A program made the translations under genes and the position numbers. From the NCBI RefSeq assembly GCF_008124525.1, contig NZ_VNHJ01000003.1, positions 1 to 64,000 on the forward strand: a DNA stretch of 64,000 nucleotides, written 5' to 3'. This stretch comes from Oceanicella actignis. GTDB lineage: Bacteria > Pseudomonadota > Alphaproteobacteria > Rhodobacterales > Rhodobacteraceae. Below, one piece after another: positions 347 through 37,888 of the stretch (positions are counted from its first letter, which is position 1; each line of letters opens with the position of its first letter). The notes beneath the pieces were generated by a model. That model searched no databases and was not told the DNA's origin. It was given only the letters and a program-made list of their open reading frames with translations.

Positions 347-754
347 GCTTATGACCGGTCGACCGCGCGAAAGCGCGACATCCTGTGTTCGATCCCCGGC
401 CTTGGCCCGATCGTGGCGGCGGCGATCCTCGCCTTCCTGCCCGAAATCGGCTCGCTGGGACGGAAACAGGCCGGAAGCCTGGCCGGGCTGGTTCCTCACC
501 GCCGCGAGTCCGGCCAGTGGAAGGGAAAGTCCTTCATCAGCGGCGGGAGAAAACCCCTGCGCGATGCGCTCTACATGCCGGCGCTCGTCGCCATGCGCTT
601 CAACCCGGACCTGAAGGCCAAATACACCGCGCTTCGCGAAGCCGGAAAACCTGCAAAGGTTGCTCTCGTAGCCCTCATGCGCAAGCTGATCGAAACCGCA
701 AATGCGCTGGTCAAGGCCGATCGACCCTGGGTCGAAAATCGCGCTTGCGCATGA
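347..754 (+). pseudogene. IS110-family transposase, 3' fragment interrupted by the IS481 element
   Basis: From the junction at 347 a frame runs without start codon into an IS110/IS116/IS902-type transposase C-terminus. It reads CSIPGLGPIVAAAILAFLPE, then a stretch with GLVPHRRESGQWKGK, GRKPLRDALYM and ALVKADRPW, and ends with TGA at 754. This is the C-terminal helix-hairpin-helix plus serine-containing domain of the family. The N-terminal DEDD catalytic half is missing here and was presumably separated by the IS481 insertion; it may lie to the left of the window. A GTG at 413 could start a 113-residue remnant, but it would have no nuclease domain, so the copy is dead. The gene ends only 8 bp before the next gene. 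Confidence 0.85.
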
Positions 755-761
755 CGGATAC

Positions 762-2561
762 TCAAAGCGTCTGCAACAGGGCCCGTGCGCGCGCGCCATG
801 GGGGCCGTCGGGGTCCAGCTCGACGGCGCGGCGCAGGCGGCTGCGCGCCTCGTCGCGCGCGCCCAGCTGCGCCAGCAGCGCGCCCAGATCGGCCAGGATC
901 TCGGGCTGGTCGGGCGCCGAGCGGGCCGCGGCCTCGAGCCGCGCGCGCGCCTCGTCGAGGCGCCCGGCGCGCATCAGCGCCACCCCCAGCGTGTGCGCGA
1001 CCGCGGGATGGGCGGGGTTGATGCGCGCGGCCTCCTCGGCGGTCTCGAGCGCCTCTTGCGCGCGGCCCATGCGCAGCAGCACCAGCGCCAGATTGTTGAG
1101 CGCCGGCCAGTGCCCGCGCACCTGCGCGATCAGGGCGCGGTATTGGGCGGCGGCTTCGTCGTCGCGGCGCGCGGCGTCCAGCAAGGTCGCAAGGTAGAAG
1201 CGCGCGGCGGCGTTCTCGGGATCGACCTCGACCGCGCGGCTGGCCAGCGCGATGGCGTCGTCCGGATCGCCCGCGGCGGCGGCGGTCCGCGCCGCTTCGT
1301 GCAGCGCGACCGGGTCCGAGGGCCCGCGGCGCAGGGCCTCGTCGGCGGCGGCGCGCGCGGCGGCCAGATCGCCCAGATCGCGTTCGAGCCGCGCGCGCGC
1401 CGCGGGGCCAAGGGGCAGGGCGGGCCATTCGCGCGTCAGCCGCTCGAGCGTCGCGCGCGCCCCGGCCGCGTCGCCGGCCTCGGCGCGGATCTCGGCCAGA
1501 AGGCGCAGCGCCTCGGGCGTCGCCGCCTCGCCCTGCGTCGCCTCGGCCAGGATCGCCGCGCCTTCGGTCGGGCGCCCGGCGCGGCGCAGAACCGTGGCCA
1601 TGCGCAGCGCGACCGCCAGCGGATCGGCCGCCAGCGGCCGGGCCTTGCGCAGGGTCTCGACGGCCTCGTCGGCGCGACCCTCGCGCGCCAGCTGGTCGGC
1701 GATGTGGATCAACGGCGCGGGGTCGGCGGGATCCAGCCGCGCGGCTTCGCGCAGCGCTTCCATGCCCTCGGCCGCGCGCCCTTCGGCGATCAGCGCCAGG
1801 CCGCGGCCCATCTGCGCGCGCGCGTCCTCGGGCGCCAGGGCGGCGGCCAGCTCGAATTGCTTGAGGGCCAGCGCCGGGCGGCCCGAGCCCAGATAGGCGT
1901 CGCCAAGGGCCTTGTGCGCCTCGGGAAAGCGGCTGCGGTCGTTCTCCCACGGCGCCAGAAGGCCGATGGCGCGCGAATGGGCGCGCTTGAGGTTGTAGAG
2001 CGCGGCCAGGTTCACGCGCGCGCCCGGCTCGGCGCCGGCGCTGGGGGGCAGGGCGGTTTCGTATTCGCGGATGGCGGCGTCGATCTGGCCGCGCGCCTGC
2101 AGCAGCGCCGCCAGGCGCAGCCGCGCCGCGGTCAGCGAGCGGTCGCGGCGCAGGGCCTCTTCCAGCGCCTGCTGCCCCTCGTCCTCGCGCCCGAGCGCCA
2201 GCAGCGCAAGCGCGCGGCGGTGGTGCAGGCCGGCCGAGGCGGGGTCGCGCTCGAGCGCCCCGTCGAAGACCTGCAGCGCCTCTTCGGCGCGGCCGTCGCG
2301 CAGCAGCGCCTCGCCCAGAAGCGACATGGCCCGGGCGTCGTCGGGGCTTTGTTCGAGATGCGCGCGCAGCAGGCCCGCGGCCTCGGCGGCGCGGCCCTCG
2401 GCCAGCAGCCGGGCGGCGCGTTCGAGCGTGCGGGTCTGCTCGCGCTCTTGCGCGCCGCCGAGCGGGTCGATCACTGCCGCCGCGGCGCACAGGGGCGCGG
2501 CGGTCAGGGCCAGAGCGGCGAGCGCCCCGAGGGCGGGGCGTCGGAAGAGGGGGTCGGTCAT
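762..2561 (-). CDS. TPR-repeat protein beside the exosortase gene (PrsT-like)
   Basis: 599 residues. An N-terminal hydrophobic segment (about 10-28, [20 protein letters not shown]) looks like a signal peptide; the cysteine is not in a good lipobox. The rest is almost entirely tetratricopeptide repeats, recognisable by spaced A/G-E-A-L and DP-A patterns (for example AAEAAGLLRAHLEQSPDDA, EEALQVFDGALERDPASA). It probably acts in the periplasm or outer envelope as a protein-interaction scaffold. It is divergent from xrtD, with 183 bp between the starts. TPR proteins of the PEP-CTERM/exosortase gene sets (PrsT family) are a known companion, so a role in exopolysaccharide or sorted-protein export is inferred from context. 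The 3' end lies 8 bp from an IS110 remnant but the frame closes normally. Confidence 0.75.
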   Translation of the reverse strand: MTDPLFRRPALGALAALALTAAPLCAAAAVIDPLGGAQEREQTRTLERAARLLAEGRAAEAAGLLRAHLEQSPDDARAMSLLGEALLRDGRAEEALQVFDGALERDPASAGLHHRRALALLALGREDEGQQALEEALRRDRSLTAARLRLAALLQARGQIDAAIREYETALPPSAGAEPGARVNLAALYNLKRAHSRAIGLLAPWENDRSRFPEAHKALGDAYLGSGRPALALKQFELAAALAPEDARAQMGRGLALIAEGRAAEGMEALREAARLDPADPAPLIHIADQLAREGRADEAVETLRKARPLAADPLAVALRMATVLRRAGRPTEGAAILAEATQGEAATPEALRLLAEIRAEAGDAAGARATLERLTREWPALPLGPAARARLERDLGDLAAARAAADEALRRGPSDPVALHEAARTAAAAGDPDDAIALASRAVEVDPENAAARFYLATLLDAARRDDEAAAQYRALIAQVRGHWPALNNLALVLLRMGRAQEALETAEEAARINPAHPAVAHTLGVALMRAGRLDEARARLEAAARSAPDQPEILADLGALLAQLGARDEARSRLRRAVELDPDGPHGARARALLQTL

Positions 2562-2670
2562 CGGGCGCCTTTCCTGCGGCTCCTGCGGCGCCGCCCGCCG
2601 GAGGGCGTGGGGCGCGCGCCTTCAGCCTAACCGCCGTTCGGCCTGCGTTCAACGCGGGCGCGCCGACGGT

Positions 2671-2698
2671 TTGATCGCCGGGGCCGATGGGTTATGTT
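2671..2698 (+). promoter_or_regulatory. possible sigma-70 promoter of xrtD
   Basis: TTGATC, a 16-base spacer and TATGTT lie about 50 bases before the xrtD start. The match is fair to the housekeeping consensus and the location is right. No experimental or comparative support is available. Confidence 0.3.
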
Positions 2699-2744
2699 GG
2701 CAGGCGGGCGCCCGGCGCCCCGGATTGCGTGACGAAGGAATTCC

Positions 2745-4376
2745 ATGCCCATGACCAGTTCCGCCGATGCCGCCGCGCAGGGCGCGCGCCCCTCGTCCGC
2801 CGGGCCCGTCTGGCTTGGCCTTTGCCTGCTCGGCTCGGCGCCGATCTTCTGGCCGGGGATCGAGTCGCTGCTCAAGGCCTGGAGCACGCCCGAATACAGC
2901 CACGGGCCGGTGATTCCGCTGCTCTCGGGCTACTTGTATCTACGCGAGATGCGCGACGTGCCGCCCGCGCAGGGCCCCATCCGCGACCGCGGCAAGGGGC
3001 TGGCGGTGCTGGCGCTGGGGCTGTTCCTGGCGGTGGCGGGCAATCTGGTGCGCATTCCCGACATCGTCACCTACGGCATGATCGTCTGGATCTTCGGCAT
3101 GATCCTGACGGCCTACGGATTCCGTCGCGGGCTGACCTTCTGGCCCTCGGTGCTGCACCTGGTGTTCATGCTGCCCTTGCCGCAATTCCTCTACTGGCAG
3201 GTGACGGTGGGGCTGCAGCTGATCTCGTCGCAGATCGGGGTCGAGCTGATCCGCCTGGCGGGGGTGCCGGTGTTCCTGGACGGGAACGTGATCGACCTGG
3301 GCGTCTACAAGCTTCAGGTCGCCGAGGCGTGCTCGGGGCTGCGCTACCTGTTCCCGATCATGTCCTTCTCCTACGTGTTCTGCGTGCTCTACCGCGGGCC
3401 CTGGTGGCACAAGGCGGCGCTGCTGCTGTCGGCCATGCCGCTGGCGGTGCTGATGAACTCGATCCGCATCGGCATCATCGGCGTGCTGGTGGACCGCTAC
3501 GGCATCGGCATGGCCGAGGGCTTTCTGCACCTGTTCGAGGGGTGGGTGATCTTCGCCGCCTGCATCGGCCTTCTGTTCCTGCTGGCCTGGACGCTGCAGC
3601 GGCTTCAGCCGCGGCCCATGCCGCTGGCCGAGGCGCTGGACCTGGATTTCGACAACGTGCTGCCGCAGCTGCGCCGCGCCTTCGACATCGCCCCGGGGCG
3701 CGCGGCGCTGGCGGCGCTGGCGCTGACGGCGGGAACCTCGGCGGCCTGGGCGCTGGCCCCGGGCGCCGACCGCGCCGAGGTCCCGCGCGAGCCTTTCGCG
3801 CTGTTCCCGCGCCAGCTCGGCGAATGGCGCGGGGCAAGCGGCCTGCTCGACCGCGACATCGAGCGCGTGCTGGGCGCGGACGACTACTACACCGCCCTTT
3901 ACGCGCGTCCGGGCGATGCGGACGGGGTGGATTTCTTCGTCGCCTATTACGACAAGCTGACCGAGGGCGGGGGCATTCACTCGCCCGAAGTGTGCATTCC
4001 CGTCGGCGGATGGGAGATGTCGCGCATCGCGCTGCAGGAGCTGACCTTCCCGCCCGAGACCGGCATCGCGCCCTTCGTCGCCAAGCGCGCCGTCATCCAG
4101 AAGGGCGAGAACCGCCAGCTGGTCTATTACTGGTTCGAGCAGCGCGGGCGGCGCATCACCAACGACTTCCTGGCCAAGGCGCTTGTGGTGTGGGATTCGC
4201 TGCGGCTGGGGCGGACCGACGGCGCGCTGGTGCGCGTGATCACCCCCATCGGCCGGGGCGAGAACGCCATGGCCGAGGCCGAGGCGCGCCTGCGCGACTT
4301 CCTGGCCGAGGCGCTGGTTCCGCTGCCGCGTTTCGTGCCGCCCCACCCGCCGCTGGCCGATCCGCGCGCGGGCTGA
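2745..4376 (+). CDS. xrtD: exosortase XrtD (VPLPA-CTERM type) fused to an EpsI domain
   Basis: 543 residues. Residues about 20-285 form the multi-pass exosortase domain with the three conserved catalytic positions: Cys196 in [10 protein letters not shown], Arg241 in NSIRIGIIG and His262 in FLHLFEGW. After a linker, residues about 345-525 match the EpsI domain ([30 protein letters not shown]). Exosortases are membrane transpeptidase-like enzymes that process a C-terminal motif-TM-basic tail in exported proteins. The XrtD branch is the fused form paired with VPLPA-CTERM substrates, and two such proteins occur at 24920-25870 and 36806-37888. GAAGGAA precedes the first ATG; a second ATG two codons later is possible. 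The family call is strong; the exact enzymatic outcome is inferred. Confidence 0.92.
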
Positions 4377-4429
4377 GGGGCGCGGTCCAAGGGGGCGGGG
4401 GGCCGGCCGCCGGGGCTGGCGGCGCCGAG

Positions 4430-4462
4430 GGCCGACGGGGGGCCGACGGGGGGCCGACGGGG
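4430..4462. repeat. three perfect 11-bp tandem repeats between convergent genes
   Basis: GGCCGACGGGG occurs three times head to tail, followed by degenerate copies. It lies in the 190-bp gap between the ends of xrtD and the corC-like gene. There is no coding potential and no U-tract, so it is not an obvious terminator. It could be a slippage product. Confidence 0.8.
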
Positions 4463-4566
4463 AACCGACCGGCGACGGCCGTGGGACCGGGGGGAAGACC
4501 GGGCGAATCGGGCTGCGGCGCGCGGGCGGGGCGAGGGGGCAGGCCGCCCCGCGCACGTGCGCTGCG

Positions 4567-5892
4567 TCAGTCCAGCTTCTTGACCCGCAGGCGCGTGATG
4601 CGGTTGCGCTTGCGCTCGAGCACCTCGAAGCGGAAGCCGTGGAAGCTGAAGATCTGCCCCGGCGTCGGAATGGCCTGCGCCTCGTGGATCACCAGCCCGG
4701 CGACGGTGTTCGCCTCGTCGTCGGGCAGCGACCAGTCGCAGGCGCGGTTGAGGTCGCGGATGGTCATGGCGCCGTCCACGATGACCGAGCCGTCGGGCCG
4801 GCGCTCGAGCCCCTCGCGCGTGGGGTCGTGCTCGTCCGAGATGTCGCCCACGATCTCTTCCAGAATGTCCTCGAGGGTGATGAGCCCTTGCAGGTCGCCG
4901 TATTCGTCCACCACCAGCGCGAAATGGCTGCGGCGCTTGAGAAAGGCGCGCATCTGCTCGTCCAGCGAGGTGGTGTCGGGCACGAACCAGGGCTGCATGG
5001 CGATCGCCAGCGGGTCGAGCTTGCGCACCGCCGCGCTCCAGTCGCCGCCGTTCTCGCGCACCAGGCGGTTGACCTCGCGCAGCAGGTCCTTGGCGTGGAT
5101 GACGCCGACGATGTTCTCGGGGTTGTCCTTCCAGATGGGCAGCCGCGTGTGGGTCGAGGCAAGGCACGCGTCGATCAGCTCTTCGGGCGGCAGCGAGGCG
5201 TCGATCATCTCGATGTTGCGCCGATGGGTCATCACCTCGGACACCTCGCGGTGACGCAGGTCCAGCGCCGCCAGAAGGCGGTCGCGGTCGTCCTTGGCCA
5301 CGGCGCCCTCGTGATGGTGCATCACGATGGCCTCGGCGATCTCCTGATGCGCCAGCACCTTGGCCTCGGGGTCGGTGCGCACGCCCAAAAGCCCCAGAAA
5401 CCCGCGCACGAAGCGCGACACCGCCGCCACCGCCGGCGCCAGCGCCCACACCAGCAGCGCGATGGGACGCGAGACGCGCTCGGCCGCCGCCTCGGGCTCG
5501 GTGATGGCGTAGGTCTTGGGCGCGACCTCGGCGAAGATCAGCACCAGCAGGGTCATGACCAGCGTCGCCAGCGCCACGCCGCTTTCGCCGAACAGCGCCG
5601 TGAACAGCGTGGTCGCCAGCGCCGCCGACAGGATGTTGACCAGGTTGTTGCCCAGCAGAATCGCGCCGATCAGCCGCTCGGGCTCGCCGCGCAGGCGCAG
5701 CGCAAGCGCCGCCCCGCGCGAGCCCTTTTCGGCCATGGCGTGCAGCTTGGCGCGGTTGGCGGCGGTCAGCGCGGTTTCCGAACCCGAGAAGAAGGCGGAC
5801 ATCAGCAGCAGCAGAAGGATCGCCGCGCCGTTCCACAAAATCGCGGGGTCGTCGAAAGCCATCAGTGCGGGGGCCGTTTCGGACATGGACAT
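4567..5892 (-). CDS. CorC/HlyC-family (CNNM/CorB-like) membrane protein with CBS domains
   Basis: About 441 residues. The N-terminal part (to about residue 190) is a DUF21/CNNM membrane domain: FFSGSETALTAANRAKL, then GNNLVNILSAALATTLF and IFAEVAPKTYAITEPE. It is followed by a CBS pair (MTHRRNIEMIDA..., HTRLPIW, VVDEYGDLQGLITLEDILEEIVGDI) and a C-terminal CorC_HlyC domain ending RITRLRVKKLD. Members are implicated in magnesium or cobalt efflux or homeostasis in the inner membrane; the substrate here is unknown. The start is one of two ATGs (5892 or 5886) behind AAGGA; the spacing favours 5886, and a longer in-frame extension to 5946 lacks a good ribosome binding site. It is divergent from cysS and convergent with xrtD. 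Confidence 0.88.
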   Translation of the reverse strand: MSMSETAPALMAFDDPAILWNGAAILLLLLMSAFFSGSETALTAANRAKLHAMAEKGSRGAALALRLRGEPERLIGAILLGNNLVNILSAALATTLFTALFGESGVALATLVMTLLVLIFAEVAPKTYAITEPEAAAERVSRPIALLVWALAPAVAAVSRFVRGFLGLLGVRTDPEAKVLAHQEIAEAIVMHHHEGAVAKDDRDRLLAALDLRHREVSEVMTHRRNIEMIDASLPPEELIDACLASTHTRLPIWKDNPENIVGVIHAKDLLREVNRLVRENGGDWSAAVRKLDPLAIAMQPWFVPDTTSLDEQMRAFLKRRSHFALVVDEYGDLQGLITLEDILEEIVGDISDEHDPTREGLERRPDGSVIVDGAMTIRDLNRACDWSLPDDEANTVAGLVIHEAQAIPTPGQIFSFHGFRFEVLERKRNRITRLRVKKLD

Positions 5893-24919: not shown

Positions 24920-25870
24920 ATGAAACATCCATTCGCCGCGGCGGCGCTGGCGGCGCTGCTGGCCGGGCCGGCGGGGGCCGTCACCGTCGCCGAGCGCTAT
25001 TCGAGCTTCATCGTCTTCGGCGACAGCCTGTCCGATCCGGGCAATCTCTATGCCGCCACCGGCGGCGCGGTTCCGCAAAGCCCGCCCTATTACGCCGGCC
25101 GCTTCTCGGACGGTCCGGTCTGGGCCGAGACGCTGGGCGCGAAATTCGCGGCCGAGGGCAAGCCCGTGGCGAATTACGCCTTCGGCGGCGCCAAGGCGGT
25201 GCAGGCGACCGATTCTCCGTTCGACATTCCAGATCTGGCGGACGAGCTGGGCCTTTTCGCCTTTTCGGGCATGCCCGCCGCGCTTGGTCCCGAGCCCCTG
25301 GCGGCGCTGTGGTTCGGGGGCAACGATCTGTTCAAGGCCCAGGGCGACGGCGGCGCGGCGCTGATCGCGGCGGCCGAGGCGGCGGCCGATGCCGTGGCGG
25401 ATGCGGCGCAGAGCCTGTTCCTGTCCTACGGCATCGAGGACATCCTGCTGGTCAATCTGGGCGATGTGGGCGCGACGCCCGCCTATGCGGGCGGGCCGCT
25501 CGAAGCGGACATGACCGCGGCGACCCTGGCCTACAACGCGCGGCTTGGGGCGAACGCCGACCTTCTGCGCCTTTCGGGGCTGAAGGTGACCCTGTTCGAC
25601 AGCTATGCGCTGGGCAAGCGCATCGCCGACGATCCCGCGGCCTATGGCATCACGAACGCGACGGACGCGTGCTTCGACGGCGCGACGGTCTGCGCCGATC
25701 CGACCGCCTACGCCTTCTTCGACGGCGTGCATCCGTCCTCGACCGCCCACAACATCCTGGCGGCGCGCATCGAGGCGGCGCTGCCCGTGCCGGTTCCGGC
25801 GGCCGGCGGGATGCTGTTGCTGGGGCTTGGCGCGCTGGCGGCGGCGGGCGCGCGGCGCAAGGCCGCCTGA
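24920..25870 (+). CDS. SGNH/GDSL-family hydrolase with VPVPA C-terminal sorting signal
   Basis: 316 residues. A signal peptide spans 1-20. GDSL block I is VFGDSLSDPGN with nucleophile Ser36; block III is FGGND with Asn135; block V is DGVHPSS with Asp268 and His271. The enzyme is thus an intact esterase/lipase-type hydrolase, substrate unknown. The last 27 residues are V290-P-V-P-A294, a hydrophobic segment (MLLLGLGALAAAG) and RRK: the motif-TM-basic tail of exosortase substrates. I infer processing by XrtD (2745-4376). The start at 24920 follows GGGAGGG with good spacing; an earlier in-frame codon (24899) lies inside the putative regulatory region. Confidence 0.88.
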   Translation: MKHPFAAAALAALLAGPAGAVTVAERYSSFIVFGDSLSDPGNLYAATGGAVPQSPPYYAGRFSDGPVWAETLGAKFAAEGKPVANYAFGGAKAVQATDSPFDIPDLADELGLFAFSGMPAALGPEPLAALWFGGNDLFKAQGDGGAALIAAAEAAADAVADAAQSLFLSYGIEDILLVNLGDVGATPAYAGGPLEADMTAATLAYNARLGANADLLRLSGLKVTLFDSYALGKRIADDPAAYGITNATDACFDGATVCADPTAYAFFDGVHPSSTAHNILAARIEAALPVPVPAAGGMLLLGLGALAAAGARRKAA

Positions 25871-36805: not shown

Positions 36806-37888
36806 ATGTCGCACCTGCCAAGGCATTCAAGATCATTCGCGCTGGGCGCGATCGCAAGCGTCATGTTCGCCGGCGCCGCTTCGGCCGCCGCGATCATCAG
36901 CAATGGCACGGTCGCGCTGGGCGTCGATGATTTCGGGCAGCTCAACGTCGCCGGGGGGCCGCCGTCTGCGCACGAAGGCACGACCTATGTCGGCCTGCGC
37001 CATGTGCCGACGAAACTGGAGGCGACCTCGCATGGCTGCCTGTGCGAGGGCTGGGGCGTGGGCATCGCCGATGCCGACAAGAACCGGATCGCCTCGGGCA
37101 GCGCGAACAACGCTGTTGGTGGGGTGGTCAACCTCTCCGCGGTGAGCTTCGCCTCCACGGCCTCGACGGCGACGTCGGTCGTCGAGCTGAGGGACGACGC
37201 CGACACCACGTCGCTTTTGCGCATCACCCACGCCTTCGGGCCGGCGGCCGAGACGTCGGACCTCTACCGGGTAAACGTGACCATCGAGAACATCTCGGGG
37301 GCGGCGATCGACGACCTGCGCTACACGCGCACCTTCGACTGGGACATCGAGCCCGACCCCTTCAACGAGGTCGTCACCCATGCCGGCGTCGCCTCCACGA
37401 CGACGGTGCTGCTGGCGGTGGACAATGGCTTCGTCAATTCCGATCCGTTCGCCGGCGGCCGCACCGAGCAGGTGGCGGACGGCACGGGCGACTTCGTCGA
37501 TCTCGGCCCGAGCGATCACGGCTCGAACTTCGACTTCGGCTTCGGTTCGCTGGACGCGGGCGACAGCTTCTCCTTCGACATCTTCTACGGCGCGACCCGC
37601 ACCGAGGCCGCGGCGCTGGCGGCGCTGGGCGAGGTCGGGGCCGAGCTCTACTCGCTCGGCCAGCCGGGCTGCGATCCGACGGGCGCCGGAACCGGAACCG
37701 GCTGCACCTACGGCGACAACCTGGCTACGGCGACGTTCATCTTCGGCTTCGCCGGCGTGGGCGGCTCGATCATCATCCCCGACCCGACGCCGGGCGGCGT
37801 GGTGCCGCTGCCGGCCGCGGCGTGGCTGCTGTTGACCGGCATCGGCGCTCTGGGCGCCGGCGGGGCGATCCGCCGCCGCAAGGCGTGA
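36806..37888 (+). CDS. VPLPA-CTERM sorting-domain protein, probably secreted structural or matrix protein
   Basis: 360 residues. A signal peptide covers about 1-29 (FALGAIASVMFAGAASAAA). The central part is beta-rich, acidic and Gly/Asp-rich without a recognised enzyme motif; it contains RYTRTFDWDIEPDPFNEV and four cysteines (CLC; CDPT...CTYG). The C-terminus is V333PLPA337, a hydrophobic span (AWLLLTGIGALGAGGA) and RRRK, the classic VPLPA-CTERM signal for XrtD. Fate after processing (cell surface or matrix) is inferred from the family. The start at 36806 follows GAGGGG; a TTG at 36773 is also open but lies in the TTGGTTAAC element. A strong terminator follows. Confidence 0.88.
   Translation: MSHLPRHSRSFALGAIASVMFAGAASAAAIISNGTVALGVDDFGQLNVAGGPPSAHEGTTYVGLRHVPTKLEATSHGCLCEGWGVGIADADKNRIASGSANNAVGGVVNLSAVSFASTASTATSVVELRDDADTTSLLRITHAFGPAAETSDLYRVNVTIENISGAAIDDLRYTRTFDWDIEPDPFNEVVTHAGVASTTTVLLAVDNGFVNSDPFAGGRTEQVADGTGDFVDLGPSDHGSNFDFGFGSLDAGDSFSFDIFYGATRTEAAALAALGEVGAELYSLGQPGCDPTGAGTGTGCTYGDNLATATFIFGFAGVGGSIIIPDPTPGGVVPLPAAAWLLLTGIGALGAGGAIRRRKA

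Follow-up and report, generated by a model that had tools for sequence, protein, structure and literature searches.

Does the exosortase gene near the left edge of a 64,000-nucleotide stretch of Oceanicella actignis DNA, together with the tetratricopeptide repeat (TPR) gene that diverges from it, form a compact sorting module of its own, or does it belong to a system spread over the genome? The stretch, referred to here as the window, comprises bases 1-64000 of the 392,523-base contig C3 in a genome of 3.28 Mb and 35 contigs. Its xrtD gene encodes a VPLPA-CTERM-specific exosortase with a fused EpsI domain (Table 1). An earlier note on this DNA had described the pair as a minimal, stand-alone sorting locus. 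On the evidence below, the window gene probably encodes a general XrtD that serves, in trans, about 14 tailed proteins encoded at scattered loci, with the exopolysaccharide island located separately on contig C2 and the TPR neighbor being lineage-specific.

The window exosortase and its candidate substrates

The window xrtD is an ordinary, intact member of the known XrtD system. In a profile search, its product matches TIGR04152 at 631.6 bits (cut-off 400) over the entire model (positions 1-486 of 486). The EpsI domain resides in the same chain (TIGR02914, 130.3 bits, residues 352-527), and PF11984 also matches the C-terminal half. Because the TIGR04152 model covers both domains, the EpsI fusion is the standard XrtD architecture and no special feature. 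A position check finds C196, R241, and H262 all present, in columns that are at least 95% conserved across 118 other XrtD rows of the alignment; we take these residues to fill the catalytic Cys/Arg/His roles of exosortases. The earlier description of a fused chain with an intact triad is thus borne out. The protein deviates at just 4 of the 145 strongly conserved columns. No solved structure matches it by sequence, and a literature search, mostly without subscription papers, found no paper naming both XrtD and exosortase and a single one naming VPLPA-CTERM. A consensus scan of the divergent intergenic stretch finds no sigma-70-like promoter, and scans of positions 2400-4600 find no promoters or terminators. 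In Tateyamaria omphalii (NZ_CP019318.1, 41892-43396), the XrtD match falls into two pieces, an annotated xrtD and a separate EpsI protein, and is a split or frameshifted fusion.

The VPLPA-CTERM model TIGR03370 gives 19 matches in the genome at E ≤ 1, five of which exceed its cut-off. When the frames are read, 14 of the 19 end in a V/A/I-P-L/V/I-P-A/G/V motif, 23-31 residues ahead of the stop, with a hydrophobic stretch and basic residues completing the tail. The tail of one (L005) reads VPVPA in its frame, the script output being LPVPV. The remaining five comprise one protein without such a tail (L016) and four matches that are not tails (L018-L021). A hydropathy script detects a signal-peptide-like start in 12 of the 14 tailed proteins (L004 and L007 fail). 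The earlier note had taken a lack of further VPxPA-type tails as evidence against its reading; 14 exist genome-wide, two of them encoded in the window, where the start of the 36806-37888 protein was picked by its signal-peptide-like N-terminus. These tails support the predicted sorting role of the window XrtD. Because the parts needed for recognition are present in the genome, the enzyme most likely serves scattered VPLPA-type proteins in trans.

In the exosortase model (Haft et al. 2006, PMC1569441), proteins are exported by Sec, retained by their C-terminal helix, processed by the exosortase, and passed on to the surface or matrix. A cyanobacterial crtB mutant (PMC12188702) is likewise a basis for this model. 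By analogy, the substrates of the window XrtD would cross the inner membrane by Sec and be held there by their tails. XrtD, with Cys196 as the putative nucleophile assisted by Arg241 and His262, would cleave at the motif, and the cleaved substrates would then move on to the surface or into the exopolysaccharide matrix, in a presumed order of events. The window XrtD may be coupled to the exopolysaccharide island on C2.

The divergent TPR protein and the XrtD-associated TPR family

The 599-residue TPR protein is indeed encoded divergently from xrtD, 183 bp apart. Its N-terminus appears signal-peptide-like by eye, and its first 60 residues contain no lipobox. The earlier note had regarded this protein as the partner of XrtD, an assignment that does not hold when the TPR proteins of other XrtD-bearing genomes are considered. 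These are represented by A1, an alignment built here of 29 Rhodobacterales XrtD-associated TPR proteins of about 820 residues. The best A1 match in the genome is the C2 protein (C2:193335-195734) at 729.9 bits, and its lipobox reads LAGC; with a loose regular expression, a lipobox is found in 61 of 74 distinct full-length members of the family. In contrast, the A1 profile scores the window TPR protein at 86.1 bits in its best stretch (model positions 352-811), and a TPR gene on contig C8 at 82.1 bits. Thus, the genome has a member of the family on C2, and the window protein is a non-member.

XrtD and the A1 family occur together. In a survey of 198 genomes from the family of the host, XrtD exceeds the TIGR04152 cut-off in 45 genomes, and an A1 TPR protein is present in 55 (E ≤ 1e-60, five candidates scored per genome). 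Both genes are found in 44 genomes, XrtD alone in 1, the A1 TPR alone in 11, and neither in 142, such that 44 of 45 XrtD genomes carry the A1 TPR vs 11 of 153 others (Fisher p 2e-32, phylogeny ignored). The distance between the two genes is below 10 kb in 22 of the 44 genomes and 10-30 kb in 8; in the other 14, which include this genome and some fragmented assemblies, they are on separate contigs. Of 199 relatives in named genomes, the 80 best loci were retained. An A1 TPR lies within the stretch around xrtD in 58 of them; among the 55 loci whose stretch extends 7 kb or more to each side, this is true of 42. Adding 6 plasmid stretches and those of 40 of the 44 other survey genomes to the named loci gives 126 stretches from overlapping sets; 80 carry an A1 TPR, and in none of these 80 is it divergent from xrtD. 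Four of the six annotated plasmid stretches list a TPR protein of 815-862 residues, three of them close to genes for sugar transferases and polysaccharide export, in a gene table that is itself incomplete. The 11 genomes with an A1 TPR and no XrtD over the cut-off (G061, G079, G087, G106, G128, G133, G141, G151, G158, G160, and G180) may use it with another exosortase type.

The window TPR protein has no such distribution. At E ≤ 1e-20, with six candidates scored per genome, a single match in the 198 genomes comes from a genome other than its own; it covers 190 residues at 40% and lies on a different contig from the xrtD of that genome. A phmmer search (E ≤ 1e-5) of 11,803 open reading frames (ORFs) from 129 xrtD stretches finds no orthologue; the 76 matches are the protein itself and 75 members of the A1 family, each at 72.3 bits or less. 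A search of plasmids under low-complexity filtering gives no match. Conservation of the TPR gene beside xrtD in relatives, which the earlier note had made a test of its reading, is therefore absent from the fetched stretches.

The divergent protein could be a dedicated periplasmic partner of XrtD, serving as a substrate chaperone or adaptor and replacing PrsT non-orthologously, so that the pair would constitute a compact sorting module. Its direct, divergent adjacency and predicted secretion are consistent with such a role, as is the fact that its best NCBIfam model is the PrsT model TIGR02917 (185.1 bits, under the 312.2 cut-off). PrsT, the TPR protein of another PEP-CTERM system, is required for flocculation in Aquincola (PMC9850573). 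However, the usual TPR protein is still encoded on C2, the window protein lacks a lipobox, its orthologues are missing from the fetched stretches, and the divergent arrangement is found in 0 of the 80 stretches that carry both genes. A partnership is thus improbable, and the candidate was rejected. By homology, the role of PrsT would fall to the C2 protein and not to the window protein. On this reading, the latter is a lineage-specific neighbor, which belongs neither to the XrtD-associated TPR family nor to any conserved part of the system.

Exopolysaccharide loci outside the window

The genome harbors an exosortase-type exopolysaccharide island without xrtD (C2:190638-207941). Homologues of its proteins recur around xrtD in the 80 named loci, namely the export protein in 54, the chain-length determinant and the ATPase in 46 each, the sugar transferase in 45, and the barrel protein in 8. 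Exosortases are detected by TIGR02602 on C3 and C6 only, so that the usual island stands without xrtD on C2 and the window xrtD stands without an island in view. A second exopolysaccharide locus on C6 contains glycosyltransferase, flippase, chain-length, and kinase genes. Because the island and the usual TPR protein are located on C2, xrtD is separated from both. The words "minimal" and "stand-alone" accordingly no longer describe the arrangement, given the TPR gene and island on C2 and further such genes with a second XrtD on C6.

The absence of exopolysaccharide genes, as claimed earlier, holds for the 64-kb window, where none are seen in a gene list read mostly by eye, without a profile scan, including the genes further right of xrtD. 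It does not hold for the genome. The window begins at base 1 of the contig within an IS481-type fragment, and the sequence to the left is therefore not visible. The insertion sequence (IS) fragments of the IS481 and IS110 types beside the TPR gene are the likely cause of the assembly break at the contig edge. As to the regulators said to be missing, no protein in the genome matches PrsK over the cut-off (16 match below it), and PrsR was not searched for.

Compared with the XrtD system described by TIGR04152, the window gene shares the full-length match, the fused EpsI domain, the catalytic residues, and the VPLPA-type tails elsewhere in the genome; it differs in that no exopolysaccharide genes are seen beside it on the visible side. 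In this it is not unique, given the 14 of 44 genomes in which xrtD and the A1 TPR are on separate contigs. The features shared with the PEP-CTERM/EpsH system with PrsK, PrsR, and PrsT (PMC1569441) are an exosortase, tails, an exopolysaccharide locus, and a lipoprotein of the TPR type, all encoded in one genome. In contrast to that system, there is no PrsK over the cut-off, neither its score nor its N-terminus, which has no lipobox, marks the window TPR protein as PrsT, and its counterpart on C2, too, remains under the PrsT cut-off (Table 1).

Table 1. Coordinates and profile matches of the features discussed (positions without a contig label refer to the window)
Feature	Position	Strand	Match or remark
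IS481-type transposase fragment, cut by contig end	3..296	-	57 bits, below cut-off 224
IS110-type transposase, C-terminal fragment	413..754	+	model 233-342 of 343; 80.5 bits, below cut-off 140
TPR protein, 599 aa	762..2561	-	TPR_19, 6.4e-47
Divergent intergenic stretch, 183 bp	2562..2744		between TPR gene and xrtD
xrtD, VPLPA-CTERM-specific exosortase with fused EpsI, 543 aa	2745..4376	+	TIGR04152; C196/R241/H262
CorC/CNNM-type gene, cysS	right of xrtD		profile matches
GDSL-type esterase, predicted XrtD substrate	24920..25870	+	VPVPA tail
Secreted protein of unknown family, predicted XrtD substrate	36806..37888	+	VPLPA tail
Chain-length determinant	C2 island		best TIGR03007, 223.0 bits
ATPase	C2 island		TIGR03015, 279.5 bits
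TPR lipoprotein	C2:193335-195734		TIGR02917, 273.4 bits, under cut-off 312.2
RmlA	C2 island		TIGR01207, 509.4 bits
Export protein	C2 island		TIGR03027, 105.4 bits
Glycosyltransferase, outer-membrane barrel protein, sugar transferase	C2 island
Further dTDP-sugar genes	C2 island		by eye
Second XrtD, 537 aa	C6:10185-11798	-	TIGR04152, 458.1 bits, over cut-off
Secreted protein, 219 aa, directly upstream of C6 xrtD	C6:11809-12468	-	TPGPG tail

The IS fragments at the contig edge and the lack of visible exopolysaccharide genes near the window xrtD also suit a reading in which this gene is a stranded relic next to insertion sequences, with sorting performed by the C6 XrtD, which does lie within an exopolysaccharide locus. 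Against it, the window copy is the conserved one of the two (4 vs 29 departures from the 145 conserved columns), its ORF is intact, and 14 VPLPA-type tails persist in the genome. A stranded relic is highly improbable.

Several points weigh against a general XrtD with a lineage-specific neighbor. The 14 tails were collected at a lax threshold, and only the five strongest matches exceed the TIGR03370 cut-off; in addition, 5 of 14 control genomes match this model at E ≤ 1, with 0 of 14 over the cut-off. The scanned C2 proteins, except RmlA, score below the curated XrtA-system/NCBIfam cut-offs, and we infer that they represent the XrtD type and not the XrtA type. Scored in full length, the window TPR protein reaches 119.8 bits against A1, the C8 protein having been scored by its best stretch only. 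With 13 TPR-matching frames and an assumed total of about 3,100 genes, a TPR gene would be among the two neighbors of xrtD by chance in about 1% of cases, and the adjacency might therefore be meaningful after all. The 41 relatives include no other genome of the genus, which places conservation over short times outside the comparison. Lastly, the co-occurrence statistic takes no account of phylogeny, and survey genomes themselves supplied 12 of the 29 A1 rows.

A second XrtD and its TPGPG-tailed neighbor

The XrtD encoded on C6 is 47-48% identical to the window XrtD. Among the 45 XrtD-bearing of 198 genomes, this is the sole genome with two XrtD over the cut-off; among the 92 XrtD-bearing of 394 genomes, it is the sole one with two matches at E ≤ 1e-80 when at most three candidates are scored per genome. 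Outside its own genome, no match to the C6 enzyme in the 394 genomes exceeds 48%. A scan of viral contigs finds no relative; for plasmids, the eight rows listed out of 26 records are annotated xrtD genes at 46.4% or less. The C6 enzyme keeps the triad, yet it deviates at 29 of the 145 strongly conserved columns, compared with 9 for the most divergent of the 118 XrtD rows that define them. Its assignment to another exosortase class was considered and rejected, TIGR04152 remaining its best model. Two trees give it a very long branch, of 4.95 and 3.96 changes per column, and its composition is deviant, so that its position in the tree is unreliable. A clade of the C6 and window copies is neither shown nor rejected (p-value of the approximately unbiased test, p-AU, 0.308). 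The C6 copy may have arisen by duplication in this lineage or by transfer.

The secreted protein encoded directly upstream of the C6 xrtD ends in TPGPGPFG, a hydrophobic stretch, and basic residues. It matches XDP1 weakly (30 bits, cut-off 125) when scanned as a longer reading of 254 residues. At E ≤ 1e-4, 295 genomes yield 19 matches in 18 other genomes. A V/I-P-L/V-P-A/S/P tail is present in 18 of these homologues and lacking in one (L198). When the tails are aligned, TPGPG falls on the VPLPA positions and retains the two prolines. A glycine at the last position is shared with 5 of the genome's 14 ordinary tails, and only the V-to-T and L-to-G changes are new. In five of the 18 homologue-bearing genomes (G004, G079, G128, G151, and G233), no XrtD match is listed, so the motif may be read there by another exosortase. 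Of the 11 matches that PF07589 gives in the genome at E ≤ 10, one is the 219-residue protein, six belong to the 14 tails, and four are tail-less frames; no second TPGPG-type protein is seen among them.

The C6 enzyme and the altered tail are possibly a private enzyme-substrate pair, and possibly a case of decay. The two XrtD copies might share the work, such that the window copy acts on VPLPA-type tails and the C6 copy on its TPGPG neighbor as a co-diverged pair. This division of labor is compatible with a general XrtD in the window, and it would account for the unique doubling, for the many departures of an enzyme that nevertheless keeps its triad, and for a tail altered at the site of the VPLPA-type motif that 18 of 19 homologues have retained. 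However, it is seen in one genome only, relaxed selection fits equally well, and the doubling was sought with few candidates per genome. The tree is unable to place the C6 copy. Retention of both prolines in a motif that aligns to VPLPA, with a last G shared by ordinary tails, makes a private pair less likely still. Shared work between the copies is therefore a tentative and rather unlikely proposal. A strict split of sorting into two channels, in which the window XrtD handles VPLPA and the C6 XrtD a single private TPGPG substrate whose motif changed along with the enzyme, is slightly more doubtful. The double XrtD and the altered C6 tail are nonetheless the part worth follow-up.

The window locus illustrates how readily a gene at a contig edge appears to stand alone. 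For the family, a clearer rule emerges, in which XrtD is accompanied by a TPR protein of about 820 residues that is often, though not always, close by. If the two channels are real, an enzyme and its sorting signal would have co-diverged within one cell, providing a natural pair for finding the residues that read the motif, and exosortase signal recognition would be directly testable by tail swaps between the two enzymes.

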